Source: Syntrophales bacterium (GTDB lineage Bacteria > Desulfobacterota > Syntrophia > Syntrophales > UBA2210). From it: a stretch of DNA of 52,825 nt. The translations under genes were made by a program, and so were the position numbers. Location: the NCBI GenBank assembly GCA_028718565.1, contig JAQULO010000009.1, positions 1 through 52,825 of the forward strand, read 5' to 3'. This document shows positions 4,775 through 52,825 of this stretch, in pieces; the stretch's first letter is position 1; the number at the start of each line of letters is the position of its first letter. Under the pieces are notes generated by a model, which had not been told where the DNA came from, did no database searches, and saw nothing but the letters and a program-made list of their open reading frames with translations.

Positions 4775-5008
4775 CTAAAATGACAGTAATTGATTTTGCG
4801 CGTATGCTCGTAATGCCTCGACATCCTCCGGGGACCACGTAGTGCTCGGTAGGTCCAAGGCCTGCAGGTATCCTCGCAGCGCCTTCCGGCGGCGCTCACA
4901 TGGCAACTGTGCGAGCTGCCGCACGAACTCCATCTCGTGGTGTAGCCACCATTGCTTGTGCTCTGGCAATCCGTAGTTGGGGCTCGATGGGTGGGGACCA
5001 GCCATCAT
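4775..5008 (-). CDS. Small helical protein, unknown
   Basis: 77 residues from the ATGATG at 5008, which overlaps the stop of the membrane peptide gene before it. Contains a Trp/His-rich stretch (KQWWLHHEMEFVRQL) and a helix rich in Arg and Leu. Not recognised. First soluble product of the late block after the divergent promoter region. Confidence 0.6.
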   Translation of the reverse strand: MMAGPHPSSPNYGLPEHKQWWLHHEMEFVRQLAQLPCERRRKALRGYLQALDLPSTTWSPEDVEALRAYAQNQLLSF

Positions 5009-5076
5009 AACCCCCACACGATCCACCAGCCGATCACCCATCCCAGGATGATGCCGGTGATAATCCACTCTATCAT
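5005..5076 (-). CDS. Predicted 23-residue membrane peptide
   Basis: Encodes MIEWIITGIILGWVIGWWIV followed by WGL, almost entirely one membrane helix with five Trp. ATG at 5076 has GGAGGG at good spacing, and the stop overlaps the next start (ATGATG). First gene of the late minus-strand block, divergent from the plus operon at 5232. Function unknown. Confidence 0.6.
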   Translation of the reverse strand: MIEWIITGIILGWVIGWWIVWGL

Positions 5077-5160
5077 TTTGCCCTCCATCCTTACAGCCCC
5101 AAACGTTTGCGCATTATTAGCATCCTGCAAAAATATGTTTGTTGCCCCTGAAAAAACTTC

Positions 5161-5189
5161 TTGACATCACCATTATCACGATATATACT
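5161..5189 (+). promoter_or_regulatory. Near-consensus sigma70 promoter
   Basis: TTGACA at 5161-5166, a 17-base spacer, and TATACT at 5184-5189: consensus -35, optimal spacing and five of six -10 bases. Expected transcription start near 5196. It is the only recognised promoter for the plus-strand island and looks strong and factor-independent. Confidence 0.85.
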
Positions 5190-5191
5190 GT

Positions 5192-5216
5192 GGTTATGAT
5201 AGATGATCGAATAACC
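5192..5216 (+). promoter_or_regulatory. Inverted repeat at the transcription start, candidate operator
   Basis: GGTTAT at 5192-5197 and ATAACC at 5211-5216 form a perfect 6-bp inverted repeat over the predicted start site and upstream of the first SD. A repressor bound here would block the promoter; the tandem-HTH protein encoded in the same operon (6240-6758) is the obvious candidate. Confidence 0.55.
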
Positions 5217-5231
5217 CAAAAGGAGGGCACG

Positions 5232-5402
5232 ATGGCCAAAGACCTGACACTGTGGAAAGAAGGAGCGGAAATATTCGACGACGAGGGCAACACTTACTAT
5301 GCCGACAAATGGTTTTGCAGCGACGGCATATCCACATTTTTTGCCGATACCAGGGCGGAGGCCGCTGCTCATTTTGGCGTGCCTCTCGGCTTCGACAACT
5401 AG
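5232..5402 (+). CDS. Small acidic protein, first gene of the plus island
   Basis: 56 residues, acidic, with aromatic residues in short beta-like segments (NTYYADKWFCSDG, TFFADTR). ATG at 5232 follows an excellent AAAGGAGGG SD; an ATG farther upstream lies before the transcription start and is rejected. No family recognised. Size, acidity and first position behind a strong promoter are features often seen for inhibitors of host defence, but nothing in the sequence proves that. Confidence 0.75.
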   Translation: MAKDLTLWKEGAEIFDDEGNTYYADKWFCSDGISTFFADTRAEAAAHFGVPLGFDN

Positions 5403-5403
5403 C

Positions 5404-5467
5404 CCCGCGCCCGGCCGGAATGCCGGGGCATACAGGAAATGCCCCCAGCCTTCGGCTGGCGAGGGGG
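5404..5467 (+). ncRNA. Repeated structured leader element, copy 1
   Basis: Starts with CCCGCGCCCGGCCGG, a stem pairing CCGGC with GCCGG, continues with GCATACAGGAA, then a second hairpin (CCAGC...GCTGG) and ends GCTGGCGAGGGGG. It fills the gap between the first two island genes, just before the SD of the second. The first 35 bases and last 13 recur at 5733-5795, while the middle differs but keeps a hairpin. Confidence 0.55.
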
Positions 5468-5488
5468 AATAAAGAAAGGAGGGGACCA

Positions 5489-5686
5489 ATGAATTTTATT
5501 GAAAGTTTGATCTCTGCCGAGGACCAGTATGATCCCAACGCAATCCCCTACACATTCCGCCGCACAGGCACGCAGGGGAGGAAAAAGATCGTTGTTTTTG
5601 CTACCAGTGCCGAGGCCGCATGGAGAGCGCTGGAAGAAAAAACAGACGAAAATGAAGAAAACGGCTGGTATATCGCTCATATATGA
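5489..5686 (+). CDS. Small acidic protein, unknown
   Basis: 65 residues; ATG with AGGAGGGG four bases before it. Pattern YTFRRTGTQGRKKIVVFATS then AEAAWRALEEKTDE suggests a small alpha/beta fold. It lies between the two copies of the repeated leader element. Not recognised. Confidence 0.75.
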   Translation: MNFIESLISAEDQYDPNAIPYTFRRTGTQGRKKIVVFATSAEAAWRALEEKTDENEENGWYIAHI

Positions 5687-5732
5687 GAAACGGTTGACGA
5701 CACCCGTGAATTCATTTACGGGGCCTGACCGT

Positions 5733-5795
5733 CCCGCGCCCGGCCGGAATGCCGGGCATACAGGAACGGCCGTCAGGCGTGAGCTGGCGAGGGGG
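5733..5795 (+). ncRNA. Repeated structured leader element, copy 2
   Basis: Matches copy 1 at 34 of the first 35 positions and at the 3' end (GCTGGCGAGGGGG). In the middle CGTCAG pairs with CTGGCG (one G-T pair) where copy 1 has CCAGC/GCTGG, so pairing is kept with different bases. It precedes the SD of the zincin gene. Confidence 0.55.
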
Positions 5796-5815
5796 TAAAA
5801 AAGGAGGGGGAAGAG

Positions 5816-6223
5816 ATGGAGATTGATGCCAGCAATGCCAAATACAAATGGTTCGGCTCGTCGGATCATGCTCCCCTTTCCGCTCTCCTCGACTTCCCTG
5901 AGCTGTATGCCACATTCCCTCAGCTCGCCGATTTGCCTGTGCGGAAATCCGATCACAGCGATTTCACCCATGCATTCGGCGGGGAGATCGCTTTCAGGGA
6001 GGCCACCAATTACATCCTCTGGAACGATATGCGGCTCAAAGCGCGGGATGAGCGAGATAACCTGGCCGATCTGATTCACGAGGTGCAGCACGCGGTGCAG
6101 AATATCGAAAATCCCGGGAACCCTGGAACAGAGGGCCGTACCCATGCCGAGTATTACAATCACCCGAAAGAGGTTCAGGCACGCGATGCGGCGGCCCGTA
6201 TGGTAATCATTATCAAACCGTGA
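5816..6223 (+). CDS. Small zincin-like protein with HEVQH
   Basis: 135 residues. LADLIHEVQHAVQ carries the HExxH zinc motif at residues 88-92, and HPKEVQARDAAAR follows about 25 residues later; this pair resembles the polyvalent-protein-associated peptidase-like domain (LPD23 type: L.HEiQHA.Q then E..AR). That domain normally sits inside very large phage polyproteins carried into the host; here it stands alone. ATG after AGGAGGGGG. Possibly cleaves or binds a host protein; substrate unknown. Confidence 0.7.
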   Translation: MEIDASNAKYKWFGSSDHAPLSALLDFPELYATFPQLADLPVRKSDHSDFTHAFGGEIAFREATNYILWNDMRLKARDERDNLADLIHEVQHAVQNIENPGNPGTEGRTHAEYYNHPKEVQARDAAARMVIIIKP

Positions 6224-6239
6224 AGAAGGAAAGGAGCCG

Positions 6240-6758
6240 ATGAGCAACATAAAAAAAGAGCTACCCGCTAACATCATCAAAGCGCTCGGCACAAAACCTG
6301 ATTCCGCGCTGGCGAGCGAGGCTAGCGTGAGTGTGGAGAGAATCCGGCGCGAGCGCATGAAGCTGGGGATTGAGTCGCACCGACGATATTTTGCGTGGAC
6401 CGAGGAAATGGATGCGCTTTTAGGCACCGTGCCGGATGCCGAACTGGCCGAGCAACTCGGTATCAGCCTACAGGCGGTGTTGCACCACAGGGAAAACAGG
6501 CGTATCGATCCCCACCGGCCGATGATGAAATACAAAACGCAGGTCAGGGCGATCGGCGCGGTATCGCTAACAGCGCACATATCGGAAAACGCAAGAAAAC
6601 AAGTGGTCGACCTCATGGCGCCACTCCTCGAAATATACCGTGAAACAGGCCTGCCCGTGAGAGAAATCAACATGTGGCAGGTGATAGAGTACGCAATCAA
6701 CAAGCTGCACAGAGAGCTTGTGCGCGACAAAAAGGAGGCAAAGAATGAGACGCTGTGA
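6240..6758 (+). CDS. Tandem helix-turn-helix protein, candidate operon regulator
   Basis: 172 residues. Two related HTH units follow each other: PDSALASEASVSVERIRRER (about residues 20-39) and PDAELAEQLGISLQAVLHHR (about 65-84); the second half has a helical oligomerisation-type region. ATG after AAAGGAGCCG. Likely binds DNA as a dimer, and the inverted repeat at the operon start site is a natural target. Anti-CRISPR-associated (Aca) regulators have the same place and logic, but this protein is not a recognised Aca family. Confidence 0.7.
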   Translation: MSNIKKELPANIIKALGTKPDSALASEASVSVERIRRERMKLGIESHRRYFAWTEEMDALLGTVPDAELAEQLGISLQAVLHHRENRRIDPHRPMMKYKTQVRAIGAVSLTAHISENARKQVVDLMAPLLEIYRETGLPVREINMWQVIEYAINKLHRELVRDKKEAKNETL

Positions 6759-7059
6759 TACGTGTGGCCGTACCGGGAACGCAACGATAGGCATGGGCGG
6801 TGCCACGATCTGTAATCAGTGTGAGCCCGACGTGCGCGAGGAAATGGACCGGCTTCGGCAGGCCGGGCAGCCCGTGAACGTGATGCACATTGCTCGGAGG
6901 ATATTCCGGGCCACCAATCGGGGGAGTGATTTTCTCCTGAAGGACTGGCCGGCGGATCTCCGGGCGCTAGCCGAGGATCGGGCATCGCGGGATGGGACCT
7001 CGATTCGGGAGTTGATTTTGAGTGCGGTGGAGGCATATGTCTCGGGGGGCTCGACATGA
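6745..7059 (+). CDS. Zinc-knuckle plus ribbon-helix-helix-like protein
   Basis: 104 residues from ATG at 6745 (AGGAGG, six bases before; overlaps the previous gene by 14 bases). N-terminus CDTCGRTG and CNQC form a zinc knuckle; the C-terminal 45 residues (LRALAEDRASRDGTSIRELI) look like a ribbon-helix-helix or CopG-type DNA-binding segment. Probable nucleic-acid-binding factor. Confidence 0.7.
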   Translation: MRRCDTCGRTGNATIGMGGATICNQCEPDVREEMDRLRQAGQPVNVMHIARRIFRATNRGSDFLLKDWPADLRALAEDRASRDGTSIRELILSAVEAYVSGGST

Positions 7060-7316
7060 CAACCGCTAAAATACTCAAGTTCAGGCGCATAACGGTCATC
7101 GAGGTAAAATGGGTTGATGACCCGCGCCGAATCTCGTCCCTCTTTATCCGCGTGCACGGAGCCGAGCTCACTGTCGATGCCGGTCCACTCGGTGCCTTCG
7201 CGATACAGTTGATTGATGGGGAGGACGGCGAGCAAATCAAGACGAGAATCTCAGAGGCCCTCGCCGGGCAACCGTTGAGGGCGACCGAGGAAATCATAGC
7301 CTCGGTGATCAACTGA
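7056..7316 (+). CDS. Small protein, unknown
   Basis: 86 residues; starts in a four-base ATGA overlap with the gene before. Beta-rich N-terminus (ITVIEVKWVDD, LFIRVHGAELTVDAG) and a helical C-terminus. Not recognised. Sixth gene of the plus island. Confidence 0.7.
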   Translation: MTTAKILKFRRITVIEVKWVDDPRRISSLFIRVHGAELTVDAGPLGAFAIQLIDGEDGEQIKTRISEALAGQPLRATEEIIASVIN

Positions 7317-7339
7317 GAACTGCGTGAGGGGGTGAAGAA

Positions 7340-7525
7340 ATGATGACTCTTACTGACGCGCTTGTAGCAATAGACAAACAGGGATACGTGCAGGACATAG
7401 GGCAACTGAGCATGGACGCAAAGCGTATGCTTCAGCTGATGGTCAAAAAGGGGTTCCTCCTTAAATCCCGTGAATATTGGACGGGAGGTACGGCTGTTAT
7501 GAAAACAACCTATCGAAATCCCTAG
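7340..7525 (+). CDS. Small protein, possible winged-helix fold
   Basis: 61 residues, ATGATG after GAGGGGGTG. MDAKRMLQLMVKKGFLLKSREYW followed by a basic strand resembles the recognition helix and wing of a small winged-helix domain, but this is only a pattern impression. Last gene of the island, followed by a terminator. Confidence 0.65.
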   Translation: MMTLTDALVAIDKQGYVQDIGQLSMDAKRMLQLMVKKGFLLKSREYWTGGTAVMKTTYRNP

Positions 7526-7544
7526 CTCCACTTTCTCGTCCTGT

Positions 7545-7570
7545 GGCCGTCTTCGGGCGGCCTCTTCTTT
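7545..7570 (+). terminator. Rho-independent-type terminator
   Basis: GGCCGTC and GGCGGCC pair over 7 bp around a TTCG loop (7545-7562), followed on the plus strand by TCTTCTTT. It closes the plus island where it meets the converging early operon. The T tract is interrupted, so strength is uncertain. Confidence 0.6.
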
Positions 7571-7664
7571 ACCGTCCCCATATCCAAACCATCACCCTGA
7601 CCATCCCCACCAAGAACAGGCCATACCCCACAAGGAATGCCACTCGTACAATGCGGAGTCGCAT
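7569..7664 (-). CDS. Predicted 31-residue membrane peptide
   Basis: Encodes a basic, hydrophobic peptide (MRLRIVRVAFLVGYGLFLVG onward) with a single membrane helix. Its ATG shares bases with the stop of the resolvase gene (TAATG), so it is probably the last gene of the early minus operon. Function unknown. Confidence 0.5.
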   Translation of the reverse strand: MRLRIVRVAFLVGYGLFLVGMVRVMVWIWGR

Positions 7665-19357: not shown

Positions 19358-19365
19358 AATTCTCT

Positions 19366-19393
19366 ATTTTAAACCGATTCGGATAAATGTCAA
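19366..19393 (-). promoter_or_regulatory. Early leftward promoter with embedded operator
   Basis: On the minus strand TTGACA (19388-19393), 16-base spacer, TAAAAT (19366-19371). The operator core CCGATTCGG (19374-19382) lies wholly between the two boxes, so repressor binding must exclude RNA polymerase. Confidence 0.75.
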
Positions 19394-19417
19394 GTATTAT
19401 TTTAAACCGATTCGGGG
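19367..19417. promoter_or_regulatory. Operator pair at the lysogeny switch
   Basis: TTTTAAACCGATTCGG occurs twice. The palindromic cores CCGATTCGG are centred at 19378 and 19411, 33 bp apart, about three helical turns. One lies in the leftward promoter; the other is just downstream of a TATTAT box (19395-19400) that can serve the rightward repressor gene. Confidence 0.8.
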
Positions 19418-19437
19418 AATTGACGGACGGTGATTAC

Positions 19438-20125: not shown

Positions 20126-20761
20126 TCAGAATCGATATCCAAAAACGGCACTTGCCTTAACACCTTCCACGGAAAAATCTGAGCCTACCGGTATGCCAGC
20201 TATCTCGGCACGCAACGTCGTCTCTCCCGTCCAAAGGTATTTCCCTTCGAGTCCCAGAAACCAATTAGGCGTGATGTTATAGACCCCTCCGGCCCCTAGA
20301 AAACCCCCGACTACGAAACTGTTGTCGCTTCCCGAGGCCCGCCCATATCCTGGTATCGTATATGTCACCGATCCGTGGACGTAATACACCCCGGCCCCGG
20401 CGATACCGTACAGTTCCGCTTTCTTGGCAATCGGTACTATTCCCTTTACAGCTACAGTGATGGGAATCGCATAAACCTTTACGTCTTCAGATACGGAATA
20501 GACGCCAACGGATTCACGAATTGTCTTGCTTGTCTCCATATACCCGCTGCCGAATTCTACCGCAAAACTTGGATTGATCTTTCTGCCAATGGCGATTTCC
20601 CCGTTGAATCCGGTATCAAGGTCTTTGAGATCCCCTTGCGGCTCGTATATTCCCCCCTTCAGGATGACGTAACTCTGGCCATCCGATGCAGCTCTTAAGG
20701 AGATAGAAGAGAAAAGAACGGCAAATAGAACCAAACACACAACAGCCAGAACAGTTTTCAT
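20126..20761 (-). CDS. Outer-membrane beta-barrel protein, lysogenic-conversion candidate
   Basis: 211 residues from ATG at 20761 (GGAGGG six bases upstream). Signal peptide MKTVLAVVCLVLFAVLFSSI... cleaved near RAA-SDG, then alternating amphipathic strands with Gly/Tyr turns and a C-terminal Phe (FGYRF), typical of 8-strand OmpA/OmpW-like barrels. It has its own promoter and stands apart from the phage operons. Probably made in the lysogen and changes the cell surface, for instance to block other phages; that role is inference. Confidence 0.78.
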   Translation of the reverse strand: MKTVLAVVCLVLFAVLFSSISLRAASDGQSYVILKGGIYEPQGDLKDLDTGFNGEIAIGRKINPSFAVEFGSGYMETSKTIRESVGVYSVSEDVKVYAIPITVAVKGIVPIAKKAELYGIAGAGVYYVHGSVTYTIPGYGRASGSDNSFVVGGFLGAGGVYNITPNWFLGLEGKYLWTGETTLRAEIAGIPVGSDFSVEGVKASAVFGYRF

Positions 20762-20800
20762 AAGAAACCCTCCGATATTAGTAATGTTAGTTCCTATGCG

Positions 20801-20829
20801 ATTATAGCTCAACAAAATCGGAACTCCAA
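20801..20829 (-). promoter_or_regulatory. Promoter of the outer-membrane protein gene
   Basis: Perfect TATAAT (20801-20806) with TTGGAG (20824-20829) 17 bases upstream. The operator pair of the next operon lies more than 40 bp beyond, so this promoter is probably not repressed in the lysogen. Confidence 0.65.
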
Positions 20830-20867
20830 GAAAAAATTAAACCGTGCAGTCGATTTTTCTTGCAATC

Positions 20868-20920
20868 TTTAAACCGATATGGTTAACTGGGAAATGTCTG
20901 ACTTAACCAATTCGGTTTAT
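20868..20920. promoter_or_regulatory. Operator pair of the rightward operon
   Basis: AACCGATATGGTT (centre 20878) and AACCAATTCGGTT (centre 20911) are the same operator type as at the switch, again with centres exactly 33 bp apart. A -35-like TTGCAA at 20860-20865 precedes the first. The ParB-like gene starts 21 bases after the pair. Confidence 0.75.
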
Positions 20921-38221: not shown

Positions 38222-39649
38222 CTATACCCTCTCACCGTTTGCTCTGATGTAGGAATCAACCGTGCTTCCAAGTCTCTTACATGCCGCAAGAAATTCGAGA
38301 GACACCTGTTCAGATTCAGGAGCACACAACTCTGTTTCTCCGAGTTTGAACCTTCCGTAGTCGATCAGCCTGTCCACGAGGTCGCGCTTGATCTGCCAGG
38401 AGAACCCAAGGTCTCTTTTCATGTTCATGACAACGGGTTCGGCAAGCATGTAGTAGCCTCGTATACTCTCCTCGTCCATGAACCTGTCCCTGAATCTCCT
38501 GGTAACGTCCACCTCTGCGGAGTCCCTACCGTGACAGGCCGTGCAGATGATACAGTCGTCAAATATCTCCTGAGCACCTCCGACTATGCCGCCTATTACT
38601 CCTCCAACCACGTTACCAACACCAGGAACTATGGAACCGATAGCGGCCCCTGCCGCCGCTCCACCCGCTATTCCTCCTGCCGCACCCCACTCATTGCTTC
38701 CCCCAAACCCTACCTGGTCTCCCATCCACTGACCTACTGCAGAACCTATCATTCCTCCGACGGAACCGGCACCTACAGGTGCAGCATACGGAGCAGCAGC
38801 AGACATTGCACCGCTTATCCCTGAAGAACCTGCCCCTAGCCCCGTTTGCGTCGCCGCACCTATGCCACTGTAGTATCCAGCCCCGGCTTCAGGTACGAGT
38901 GATCCGGCTGCGACTGTACTTCCTATGCCTGTCGCAGTCCCGGCTAGTGTCCCTGTTGTTTCTCCTCCTGCTGCAAGATTTGCGGCTGCGGTTGATCCAT
39001 AGATATCGCCAAGCTCGGTAGCGGCACCAATGCCTTCATACATGCCTGTAGTTGGGATTGTCGTATATGGAGTAGTGGCCAAGCCAGCCTGTGTTGCTGC
39101 TCCGATGCCTTCGTACATACCTGTAGTTGGGATTGTCGTATATGGAGTAGTGGCCAAGCCAGCCTGTGTTGCTGCTCCGATGCCTTCGTACATACCTGTA
39201 GTTGGGATTGTCGTGAAGGGGTTTGTGGCTGCTGCTGCATTGCCCCATAGGTCAAGTTCCTTTCCGAGTTTGTATACTGCAAGACCAGCCAATGGGGCTT
39301 GCACGCCTGCGCTGATCAGACCGGCCTGCTTCTGCGCCTGCGCCTGTTTCTCGGCCTGTCGTATGTTCGCCATGTTCGCGGCGTACTGTTGTTCCAGGCT
39401 TTGAGTTCCGAGATTCAGTTGATTCGTGATGCTCTGTTGCGTAAGGGCATTGGACGCCGTATTTTGCGAAGCCTGTTGCGCGAGTGCTTGTTCTTGCAAT
39501 GCGAGAGAACGAGATTGTGCTTTCCGGTTGTATTCTTCGTTCAATTCCGCCATCCGAAGGGCTTGTAGTTCTTCAGGGCTTGGCTTCATCCCTGTCGTGA
39601 GATACCGTTGATTGAAGTAATTGCGCCATGCCGCCAAACTATTTGCCAT
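38222..39649 (-). CDS. Ejection-type virion protein with 25-residue repeats and Gly-zipper
   Basis: 475 residues from ATG at 39649 (AAGGAGG seven bases upstream; 22 extra upstream codons fall in the terminator and are rejected). Parts: coiled coil (about 20-120), three tandem copies of TIPTTGMYEGIGAATQAGLA + TTPYT, then Gly/Ala-rich membrane-active segments (GGIAGGAAAGAAIGSIVPG), and a Cys-containing C-terminal domain (CIICTACHG). Fits a pore-forming ejection protein. Confidence 0.7.
   Translation of the reverse strand: MANSLAAWRNYFNQRYLTTGMKPSPEELQALRMAELNEEYNRKAQSRSLALQEQALAQQASQNTASNALTQQSITNQLNLGTQSLEQQYAANMANIRQAEKQAQAQKQAGLISAGVQAPLAGLAVYKLGKELDLWGNAAAATNPFTTIPTTGMYEGIGAATQAGLATTPYTTIPTTGMYEGIGAATQAGLATTPYTTIPTTGMYEGIGAATELGDIYGSTAAANLAAGGETTGTLAGTATGIGSTVAAGSLVPEAGAGYYSGIGAATQTGLGAGSSGISGAMSAAAPYAAPVGAGSVGGMIGSAVGQWMGDQVGFGGSNEWGAAGGIAGGAAAGAAIGSIVPGVGNVVGGVIGGIVGGAQEIFDDCIICTACHGRDSAEVDVTRRFRDRFMDEESIRGYYMLAEPVVMNMKRDLGFSWQIKRDLVDRLIDYGRFKLGETELCAPESEQVSLEFLAACKRLGSTVDSYIRANGERV
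39023..39216. repeat. 75-bp tandem repeats inside the ejection-protein gene
   Basis: A 75-bp unit beginning CCTGTAGTTGGGATTGTCGT starts at 39045, 39120 and 39195. The first two copies are identical along their full length and the third is partial. Each unit encodes one 25-residue repeat. Near identity at DNA level points to recent duplication or slippage. Confidence 0.95.
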
Positions 39650-39752: not shown

Positions 39753-40400
39753 CTACTTCTTCTCATAGTCCCTTATGGCTTCTATTCTTTTCTCAAGACC
39801 TGGATGATCCGAGAACAAGCCCCCTTTCGTTTTTATGTCATTGTTCCTGGCATAGTCCAACAGCTTTTCAAGGGCAGTCGCGCAACATTCCTTGTCGATT
39901 CCCATATATCGATCTACGTATTCCACCCCGGCTATGTCTGCCTCTGATTCTGCTTTTCGTGAGTATGCCTTGGTCATAAGCGGATTGGCTAGAGCGTTGA
40001 CGTTTCCCGTTCCGGGAACCACCATGTTTGCTATCAAAGACACGGTAGTTACGGCACTCGATACCGCTCTTCTTTTCCGCACATGACCCAACACGGAATG
40101 AGCTACTTCGTGTGCAAAAACACAGGCGACCTCATTGTCATCCAGCATACTGAAAAGGCCGGTCGTGAACACTAGAGCTCGATCGTTGTTCCACGCCCCC
40201 GGAATACAATCTATCACGATGGAAACCCTGTATTTTTCGACGTTCCCTTTATCGACACGGGGAATTATGGCGTTTCCTATCCTAACCGCCCTTTTATAGT
40301 CCGGTTGATCAAAAGGAAGAACTGCCGGCCGGTGTTTGGTGTACCCCGCACACCCCACAAGCAAAAGCACCATCACAATGGCAACGACAGTGTATCTCAT
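39753..40400 (-). CDS. M48-family metalloprotease lipoprotein
   Basis: 215 residues from ATG at 40400. MRYTVVAIVMVLLLVGCAG is a lipoprotein signal with Cys17 as the lipid site. HEVAH at 97-101 and SEADIAG (E153) are the zinc ligands of M48 peptidases, as in LoiP/BepA-type periplasmic proteases that handle outer-membrane proteins. It has its own promoter and terminator inside the virion gene block. Likely made in the lysogen and anchored in the envelope; substrate unknown. Confidence 0.88.
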   Translation of the reverse strand: MRYTVVAIVMVLLLVGCAGYTKHRPAVLPFDQPDYKRAVRIGNAIIPRVDKGNVEKYRVSIVIDCIPGAWNNDRALVFTTGLFSMLDDNEVACVFAHEVAHSVLGHVRKRRAVSSAVTTVSLIANMVVPGTGNVNALANPLMTKAYSRKAESEADIAGVEYVDRYMGIDKECCATALEKLLDYARNNDIKTKGGLFSDHPGLEKRIEAIRDYEKK

Positions 40401-40407
40401 AATAACC

Positions 40408-40435
40408 ATTCTACGCTCAATGAGAGATTTGTCAA
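40408..40435 (-). promoter_or_regulatory. Promoter of the M48 gene, leaderless
   Basis: On the minus strand TTGACA (40430-40435), 16-base spacer, TAGAAT (40408-40413). The expected start is at or within a base or two of the ATG at 40400, so the message lacks a leader; the other in-frame ATG at 40409 falls inside the -10 box. Confidence 0.7.
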
Positions 40436-51653: not shown

Positions 51654-52825
51654 CTATCTCCTGGCCCCCTGCCCATACTTAGCTTGCGGGACGCTACGCT
51701 GTACTATCGTCTCAAGTCTCGGAGGCCGCTGAAATGCCGGATGCTTCAAGGCCGCTTCCAGGCACATGCAGTGGTGCGACCATTTCTGCTGCGGCTTCTC
51801 CTTCGGGTCCTTCTCCACCTTTGCGTTTTGGTCCTTGTGTTCCTCGGTCCTCCAGTTCTTCAGGCTCAAGGCCGTCTGCCTACAGGTATCCATGATCCAT
51901 ATCGTGGGGAGTATCTCCGTCCTCCCATTCCTTACGACCTTGTTGTTGAACGGCCTTCCCACGTCCCTGGCATTCTTCAGTCTCTTCTTCAGTTCATCCC
52001 TTCCTCTTTGGGATTTAGTGTCCCATGACTGGAAGTAGCCACCCGTGCCTATTCCGTCGCGCTTGAGGTTGAACAGGTGCCGGTTCAAATCGTCTACGAC
52101 CGGTACGCCGACAGACGGCTGGTTCTTTGCCGCGAGCGGGTCTATGAGATCGACGGACGATTTCACGTCACCCGTCATTTCCGCTATCTCGTGTGCTATG
52201 TACATCACCACGTCTTTCTCGGGGGAAGGGTCGTACTCCCGATACACGAATATCTCATCGTCAGGAGAATGGGCAATCCAGTTCACGGCCCAGGGATTGA
52301 GCTCATGAAAATCGATCATCCTTCCGTGCCGCCATTCGTAGGGCACACCGCTTGGAAAGTATTTCTCCATACTCAGCCAATGGACATCCCACTGGAGGTC
52401 CTTGAAGATGGCGCCCCCGATTTGTTTCATAATCCCGTAACGCCTCATAGGGATAAGATCAGGATCGGCGCCGGCAATATAGGTGCTGATATACTCGTCA
52501 ACGGTCATGTCGAGGCCCTGCTGTCTGATGACTTCGGCCCATATGGGGTTGTCATCGGTAGCGGCCTGGAATATGCCTATGTCGTACGGGCTGTCGGTCT
52601 TCTCGACCTTCTTGACCTCTTTGTTGAGGTATGTCTTGTACGCCTTCACCACTTCTGGGGTACGAACGATGACTTTGGCATTCTCATACAGTTCTTCGTA
52701 CATGTAGTTTGCGTCTATGGCTGTGAGGCACACGATCATACGGCCACCCGCCGCGAGAAGACGGGGCTTCTGCTCCTCGAACACCTTGTAGGAAGGCAAT
52801 TCCGATATGATAATGAGCTTCCGTT
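51654..52825 (-). CDS. terL: Terminase large subunit, C-terminal part (begins at 590 across the join)
   Basis: Continues the frame from 590 through the circular join. It holds the nuclease half: MIDFHELNPWAVNWIAHSPD then EIFVYREY is the first acidic strand and return strand of the RNase H-like nuclease, and DVVMYIAHEI with later Asp-rich segments supplies the rest. A TTG near 52799 is not a true start. Stop lies three bases before the portal start. Confidence 0.85.
   Translation of the reverse strand, partial: RKLIIISELPSYKVFEEQKPRLLAAGGRMIVCLTAIDANYMYEELYENAKVIVRTPEVVKAYKTYLNKEVKKVEKTDSPYDIGIFQAATDDNPIWAEVIRQQGLDMTVDEYISTYIAGADPDLIPMRRYGIMKQIGGAIFKDLQWDVHWLSMEKYFPSGVPYEWRHGRMIDFHELNPWAVNWIAHSPDDEIFVYREYDPSPEKDVVMYIAHEIAEMTGDVKSSVDLIDPLAAKNQPSVGVPVVDDLNRHLFNLKRDGIGTGGYFQSWDTKSQRGRDELKKRLKNARDVGRPFNNKVVRNGRTEILPTIWIMDTCRQTALSLKNWRTEEHKDQNAKVEKDPKEKPQQKWSHHCMCLEAALKHPAFQRPPRLETIVQRSVPQAKYGQGARR
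52699..52825. repeat. Terminal direct repeat, right copy
   Basis: Exact copy of bases 1-127; marks where the circular sequence closes. Confidence 0.9.

Follow-up and report, generated by a model that had tools for sequence, protein, structure and literature searches.

A self-contained seven-gene phage operon encoding a predicted solo form of the polyvalent-protein zincin domain

The window analysed here (the whole stretch of DNA, 52,825 nt) carries seven plus-strand open reading frames (ORFs) spanning 5232-7525, hereafter the island, which is opposite in strand to its neighbours on both sides, as described in the initial annotation. Codon-usage scores were positive for all seven, albeit weakly for ORF5 (0.02 bits per codon). 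The description of seven small genes with strong Shine-Dalgarno (SD) sequences holds for the number of ORFs and for the purine-rich SDs ahead of ORFs 1-5, but the SD of ORF7 is less well placed and the start of ORF6 overlaps the stop codon of ORF5. A 710-aa minus-strand ORF covering most of the same region (5399-7531) was rejected as an antisense artefact on the basis of its negative codon-usage score and odd composition (13% Ser, few Asp, Glu and Lys residues), with the homology of ORF3 also arguing against it. Very short minus-strand hydrophobic ORFs of about 25-30 aa are present at both edges of the island (5005-5085 and 7569-7664).

Upstream of ORF1 a plus-strand sigma-70-type promoter at 5161..5189 consists of TTGACA (5161-5166), a 17-nt spacer and TATACT (5184-5189), matching 11 of 12 consensus positions with an expected start near 5196. 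Three sites of this quality are present genome-wide compared with 0.4 expected in random sequences of the same dinucleotides, and one of the other two coincides with the lysogeny switch, at about 19393 on the minus strand, suggesting that such sites are real in this phage. A plus-strand intrinsic terminator comprising GGCCGTCTTCGGGCGGCC and a T-rich tail (7545..7562) is located 20 nt past the last stop codon. Both the near-consensus promoter and the terminator noted initially are therefore upheld; at the sequence level the island has a promoter and terminator of its own and is a real, self-contained operon. The inverted repeat GGTTAT-13-ATAACC (5192..5216; arms at 5192-5197 and 5211-5216), claimed as the operator of a helix-turn-helix (HTH) autorepressor, is present but at chance level: when 82-nt windows were examined for arms of at least 6 and spacers of 3-20, an equal or better repeat was found in 404 of 2000 shuffles and 274 of 1287 real windows of the genome (approximately 20% of windows). 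No second copy was found at 0-1 mismatches. The repeat is downstream of the -10 element and outside the core promoter, whereas Aca inverted repeats are located within it (PMC9410906). With the HTH gene in mid-operon and encoding a 172-aa tandem-HTH protein, the proposed autorepression is not supported.

Two copies of a structured GC-rich repeat, an 86-nt segment with 87% mean identity, are present on the plus strand between ORF1 and ORF2 (5403..5488) and between ORF2 and ORF3 (5732..5815), although the flanking ORFs are unrelated. Copy 1 contains a CCGGC-CGGAAT-GCCGG hairpin, CATACAGGAA, a CAG..CTG hairpin and a GGAGG ribosome-binding site, and both copies keep the first hairpin, CATACAGGAA and, ahead of the ribosome-binding site, GCTGGCGAGGGGG. 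The copies share an identical 5'-proximal hairpin whilst the middle sequence and the remaining predicted folds differ; a common fold of both copies was thus rejected, two sequences giving no covariation evidence. Fold energies were modestly under those of shuffled sequences (z -2.2 and -1.5). The repeat corresponds to no Rfam family, and five pattern matches in viral contigs had nothing in common outside the pattern. Covariance-model matches in genome G082 (by eye, coding sequence of a transhydrogenase beta subunit) and in G128 (an rpsB leader) were judged to be chance, a match in G035 had no convincing context, and in the genome bin a near match on contig 17 falls within a coding gene. No convincing copy was found elsewhere in viral contigs, in the bin or in the covariance-model search of genomes. 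The repeats may act in mRNA insulation, stabilisation or processing, or may represent a functionless recent duplication.

ORF1 (5232..5402, plus strand, 56 aa), ORF2 (5489..5686, plus strand, 65 aa), ORF6 (7056..7316, plus strand, 86 aa) and ORF7 (7340..7525, plus strand, 61 aa) gave no significant match in Pfam, PHROGs, NCBIfam or PADLOC. For ORF1 no relatives were found, and for ORF2 there was no phage match and only a WGR-like match below cut-off (PF05406, E=0.0042, under the gathering score). A paralogous relationship between ORF1 and ORF2 was rejected, as 1204 of 2000 shuffles reached an equal score. PADLOC defence families matched no island product. The description of the island products as a new set of proteins fits ORFs 1, 2, 4, 5, 6 and 7 at the level searched, but not ORF3, which has known relatives.

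ORF4 (6240..6758, plus strand, 172 aa) contains two HTH copies of the PD.ELA..L..S...V kind followed by a C-terminal helical region that is ribbon-helix-helix-like by eye. The mutual alignment score of the two copies was reached by none of 2000 shuffles, confirming the predicted tandem-HTH protein as an internal duplication. ORF4 matched PHROG 323, a T5 D5-like regulator family (E=4.7e-5), and its structure predicted without an alignment (pLDDT 56) gave matches that are meaningful only as HTH-type folds. No relatives were detected in viral contigs, by peptide patterns in 84,980 bacterial and archaeal genomes, or by a profile in 59 related genomes; the search for this gene in other phages, suggested as a source of informative neighbours, therefore yielded none to list. 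ORF5 (6745..7059, plus strand, 104 aa) has a CxxC..CxxC motif and then, by eye, a ribbon-helix-helix-like C-terminus, with a weak Arc-like match to PHROG 582, and looks like a zinc-finger plus ribbon-helix-helix protein.

ORF3 (5816..6223, plus strand, 135 aa) is identified by homologues and predicted fold as a zinc metallopeptidase with H88, E89, H92 and E119 as the characteristic residues, confirming the HEVQH zincin noted previously. Relatives were found at 21 viral loci with 29-39% identity. H88, E89, H92 and E119 are invariant across nine aligned members, all ligands being kept, and further invariant residues include P28, L30, Q91-AVQNIE, A122, R123 and R128. The closest relatives, on 21 viral contigs, are domains of proteins of up to 3228 aa, and viral and bacterial relatives alike are longer open frames (314-3228 aa), the bacterial ones being frames of 429 and 2666 aa in two genomes out of 394 others from the phylum. 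Pfam LPD23, a 'large polyvalent protein associated domain', was found in one relative, and a virion protein of 3.8 kaa from Pseudomonas phage Epa33 is a weak match. The AlphaFold2 model of ORF3 (pLDDT 79) has strands at 41-44, 58-61 and 66-69 and helices at 79-98 and 117-133, and fits the MPTase superfamily core, in which a three-stranded sheet is accompanied by one helix on its N-terminal side and two on its C-terminal side; this core and the ligand set are described by Iyer et al. (2017) exactly as found in ORF3 (PMC5512222). The top BFVD match of the model was a viral protein with an LPD38 annotation (E 8.7e-6, TM 0.74). PDB matches were headed by minimal zincins such as abylysin and selecase, none at a significant E value; IrrE-like phage proteins were weaker structural matches (E about 0.09-0.13), and there was no M78/IrrE Pfam match at E<=1. 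Structure prediction and remote homology, proposed for every product, placed ORF3; homology searches left ORF1, ORF2, ORF6 and ORF7 without relatives. ORF3 is a single 135-aa domain with stop codons on both sides and so is not a whole polyvalent protein, in which 2-15 domains occupy one polypeptide. From homology and the model it is best described as a zincin domain of the kind built into phage large polyvalent proteins, here standing alone.

The window opens and closes with the same 127 bases (1-127 = 52699-52825). The phage genome is therefore complete and circular, with a length of 52,698 bp, and forms contig 9 of a genome bin of 2.53 Mb. A gene spanning the circle junction is split in the window and, by its position, is probably that of the large terminase. 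Gene content includes an SU10-like portal, a head/protease-type protein, a tyrosine integrase, a cytosine methyltransferase, a primase-helicase and a Cas4-type exonuclease, and predicts a tailed phage, of temperate type since integrase and Cro/CI-type genes are present. Searches of the phage collection, of viral contigs and of 154 further genomes of the order found no portal relatives, indicating a phage distant from those sampled, and no whole-DNA match was found. A BLAST search of the stretch following the integrase against the bin, for an attachment site, gave only weak short matches. Relatives of the primase-helicase (32-46% identity) are present in 12 genomes of the order (including G043, G074, G083, G039, G087 and G067) which share almost no further gene with the phage and offer no site comparable to that of the island; this points to a widely swapped replication module. 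Elsewhere, a 75-nt unit is repeated three times in tandem inside a long late gene (39008-39232), and a minus-strand gene at 2384-2911 encodes a 175-aa protein with HEVCE replacing HExxH, possibly a second, altered zincin.

The island sits between the minus-strand replication block, which ends in a RuvC-like resolvase gene directly to its right, and the minus-strand late side, with a gene for an HTH/terminase-small-subunit-like protein (weak match) to its left. Its GC content is 55.4% against 51.6%, a deviation of only approximately 1.4 s.d., with 7 of 101 windows equally high. No syntenic relative lacking the island was found in the data searched, which leaves its insertion putative. The lysogeny switch occupies 19.35-19.42 kb, where two exact TTTAAACCGATTCGG operators (19368 and 19401) lie between divergent Cro-like and CI-like genes; a third, at 20868, has two mismatches (operator regions 19365-19422 and 20865-20889), and no such operator was found near the island promoter (5160). 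Within the lysogeny region, on the opposite strand, a minus-strand gene at 20126-20815 encodes a predicted beta-barrel protein of the outer membrane (Pfam OMP_b-brl, E 5.8e-13) and may serve lysogenic conversion or superinfection exclusion. RuvC is at the end of the leftward early block, and no minus-strand terminator-like site was found between RuvC and the late side; lytic leftward transcription would consequently cross the island antisense and could silence it. Such crossing would favour expression of the island in lysogens or right at the onset of infection, and the lysogen or the first minutes are as likely a time of expression as the 'early' phase originally proposed.

We place at about even chances an interpretation of the island as a moron-like accessory operon of this temperate-type phage. 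Seven small genes, served by a constitutive sigma-70 promoter and a terminator of their own and lying outside the phage lysogeny operators, would have been inserted in reverse between the RuvC end of the replication block and the late side. Their transcription would be independent of the lytic cascade and would hence take place in the lysogen and/or immediately on entry. The operon's effector is probably the zincin. As ORF3 is without a partner polypeptide of its own, the simplest inference is cleavage in trans, and it may cut a protein of the host or of a competing element, for example a regulator or defence component. ORF4 and ORF5 would be DNA-binding regulators tuning the cassette or other phage or host promoters, and the structured segments that precede the ribosome-binding sites of ORF2 and ORF3 probably have a part in stabilising, processing or insulating the polycistronic mRNA, in the way that RNase III sites act between the early genes of T7. 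The raised GC content of the island counts in favour of an accessory operon and the small size of the deviation against it, and auto-processing, allowed by Iyer et al. (2017), would not fit a lone host-directed domain. A fuller version, in which ORF3 is a minimal host-directed protease acting in trans and served by two DNA-binding regulators of its own, while a new structured RNA element present twice sets translation or processing of the operon, appears quite unlikely.

In an alternative reading ORF3 would cleave a phage or host HTH regulator such as the adjacent ORF4, in the manner of ImmA/ImmR or IrrE/DdrO, and the island would then be regulatory in function instead of a cassette of effectors. 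The zincin gene lies directly upstream of the HTH gene in one operon, modules of HTH repressor and metalloprotease are known (PMC10233336), and the weaker structural matches of ORF3 to IrrE-like phage proteins are consistent with such a switch. This reading is nevertheless doubtful given the far better match of ORF3 to polyvalent zincins and the absence of an M78/IrrE Pfam match, and given that ORF4 is no CI-type repressor of the single-HTH kind and that the phage has its lysogeny switch elsewhere. An anti-CRISPR or anti-defence operon with an Aca-type autorepressor would account for the promoter, the small unrelated genes and the HTH gene, and the zincin family has been linked to phage-host conflict (Iyer et al. 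2017; PMC5512222). The chance-level inverted repeat outside the core promoter argues against it, as do the lack of a PADLOC family and of homologues for guilt by association, and no Cas1 was found in the bin (the same search finds Cas1 in a genus mate and in 10 of 21 genomes of the set); the phage's actual host may be an organism other than that of the bin. An operon of this design is unlikely; an anti-defence role for the island is possible.

A virion or morphogenesis role, with ORF3 processing structural or ejected phage proteins in trans as its domain may inside polyvalent proteins, draws on the presence of domain relatives in virion proteins, among them the Epa33 'structural protein', and on the processing of DdrB prior to packaging (PMC5512222). 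We consider it highly unlikely, as the operon is apart from and opposite to the late genes, has a constitutive-type promoter and two regulators, and an HExxH scan identified the phage's other good zincin, an M48 peptidase, in the late block (minus strand, 39753-40409; Pfam E 9.8e-19, within the structural genes). The significance of the accessory-operon interpretation lies in the fact that the zincin is the commonest domain of phage polyvalent proteins, for which both auto-processing and host-directed cleavage have been proposed and the choice between self-processing only and host-protein cleavage is still open (Iyer et al. 2017; PMC5512222). A solo 135-aa zincin in a self-contained operon has had the self-processing partner removed and is small enough to express, allowing a direct test of a role in trans, and if the fuller version described above is correct the isolated effector could reveal the substrate of very common phage proteases.

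Compared with known systems, the island resembles acr-aca operons in its strong promoter, small genes and HTH gene, but lacks an above-chance inverted repeat in the core promoter, its HTH protein is larger, doubled and encoded mid-operon, and none of its products has an Acr/Aca-type match in Pfam, PHROGs, NCBIfam or PADLOC. As in ImmA/ImmR and IrrE/DdrO pairs a zinc protease gene adjoins an HTH gene, but the protease is of the polyvalent type rather than M78, the regulator is tandem-HTH and the lysogeny switch is separate. Phage morons and lysogenic accessory loci share with the island a sigma-70 promoter and terminator, a position between core modules, opposite strand orientation and unrelatedness to lytic functions; the island differs in having seven genes and two intergenic structured repeats, and no insert-free sister phage is present in the data searched. 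With the MPTase domains of polyvalent proteins (PMC5512222) ORF3 shares HExxH plus a distal Glu, the PELY..YPQL N-terminal helix, QHAVQNIE and the E-A-R helix, together with the sequence identity and structural match to the LPD38-annotated protein given above, but it is a solo 135-aa protein in an operon of its own whilst its relatives lie in frames of 314-3228 aa.
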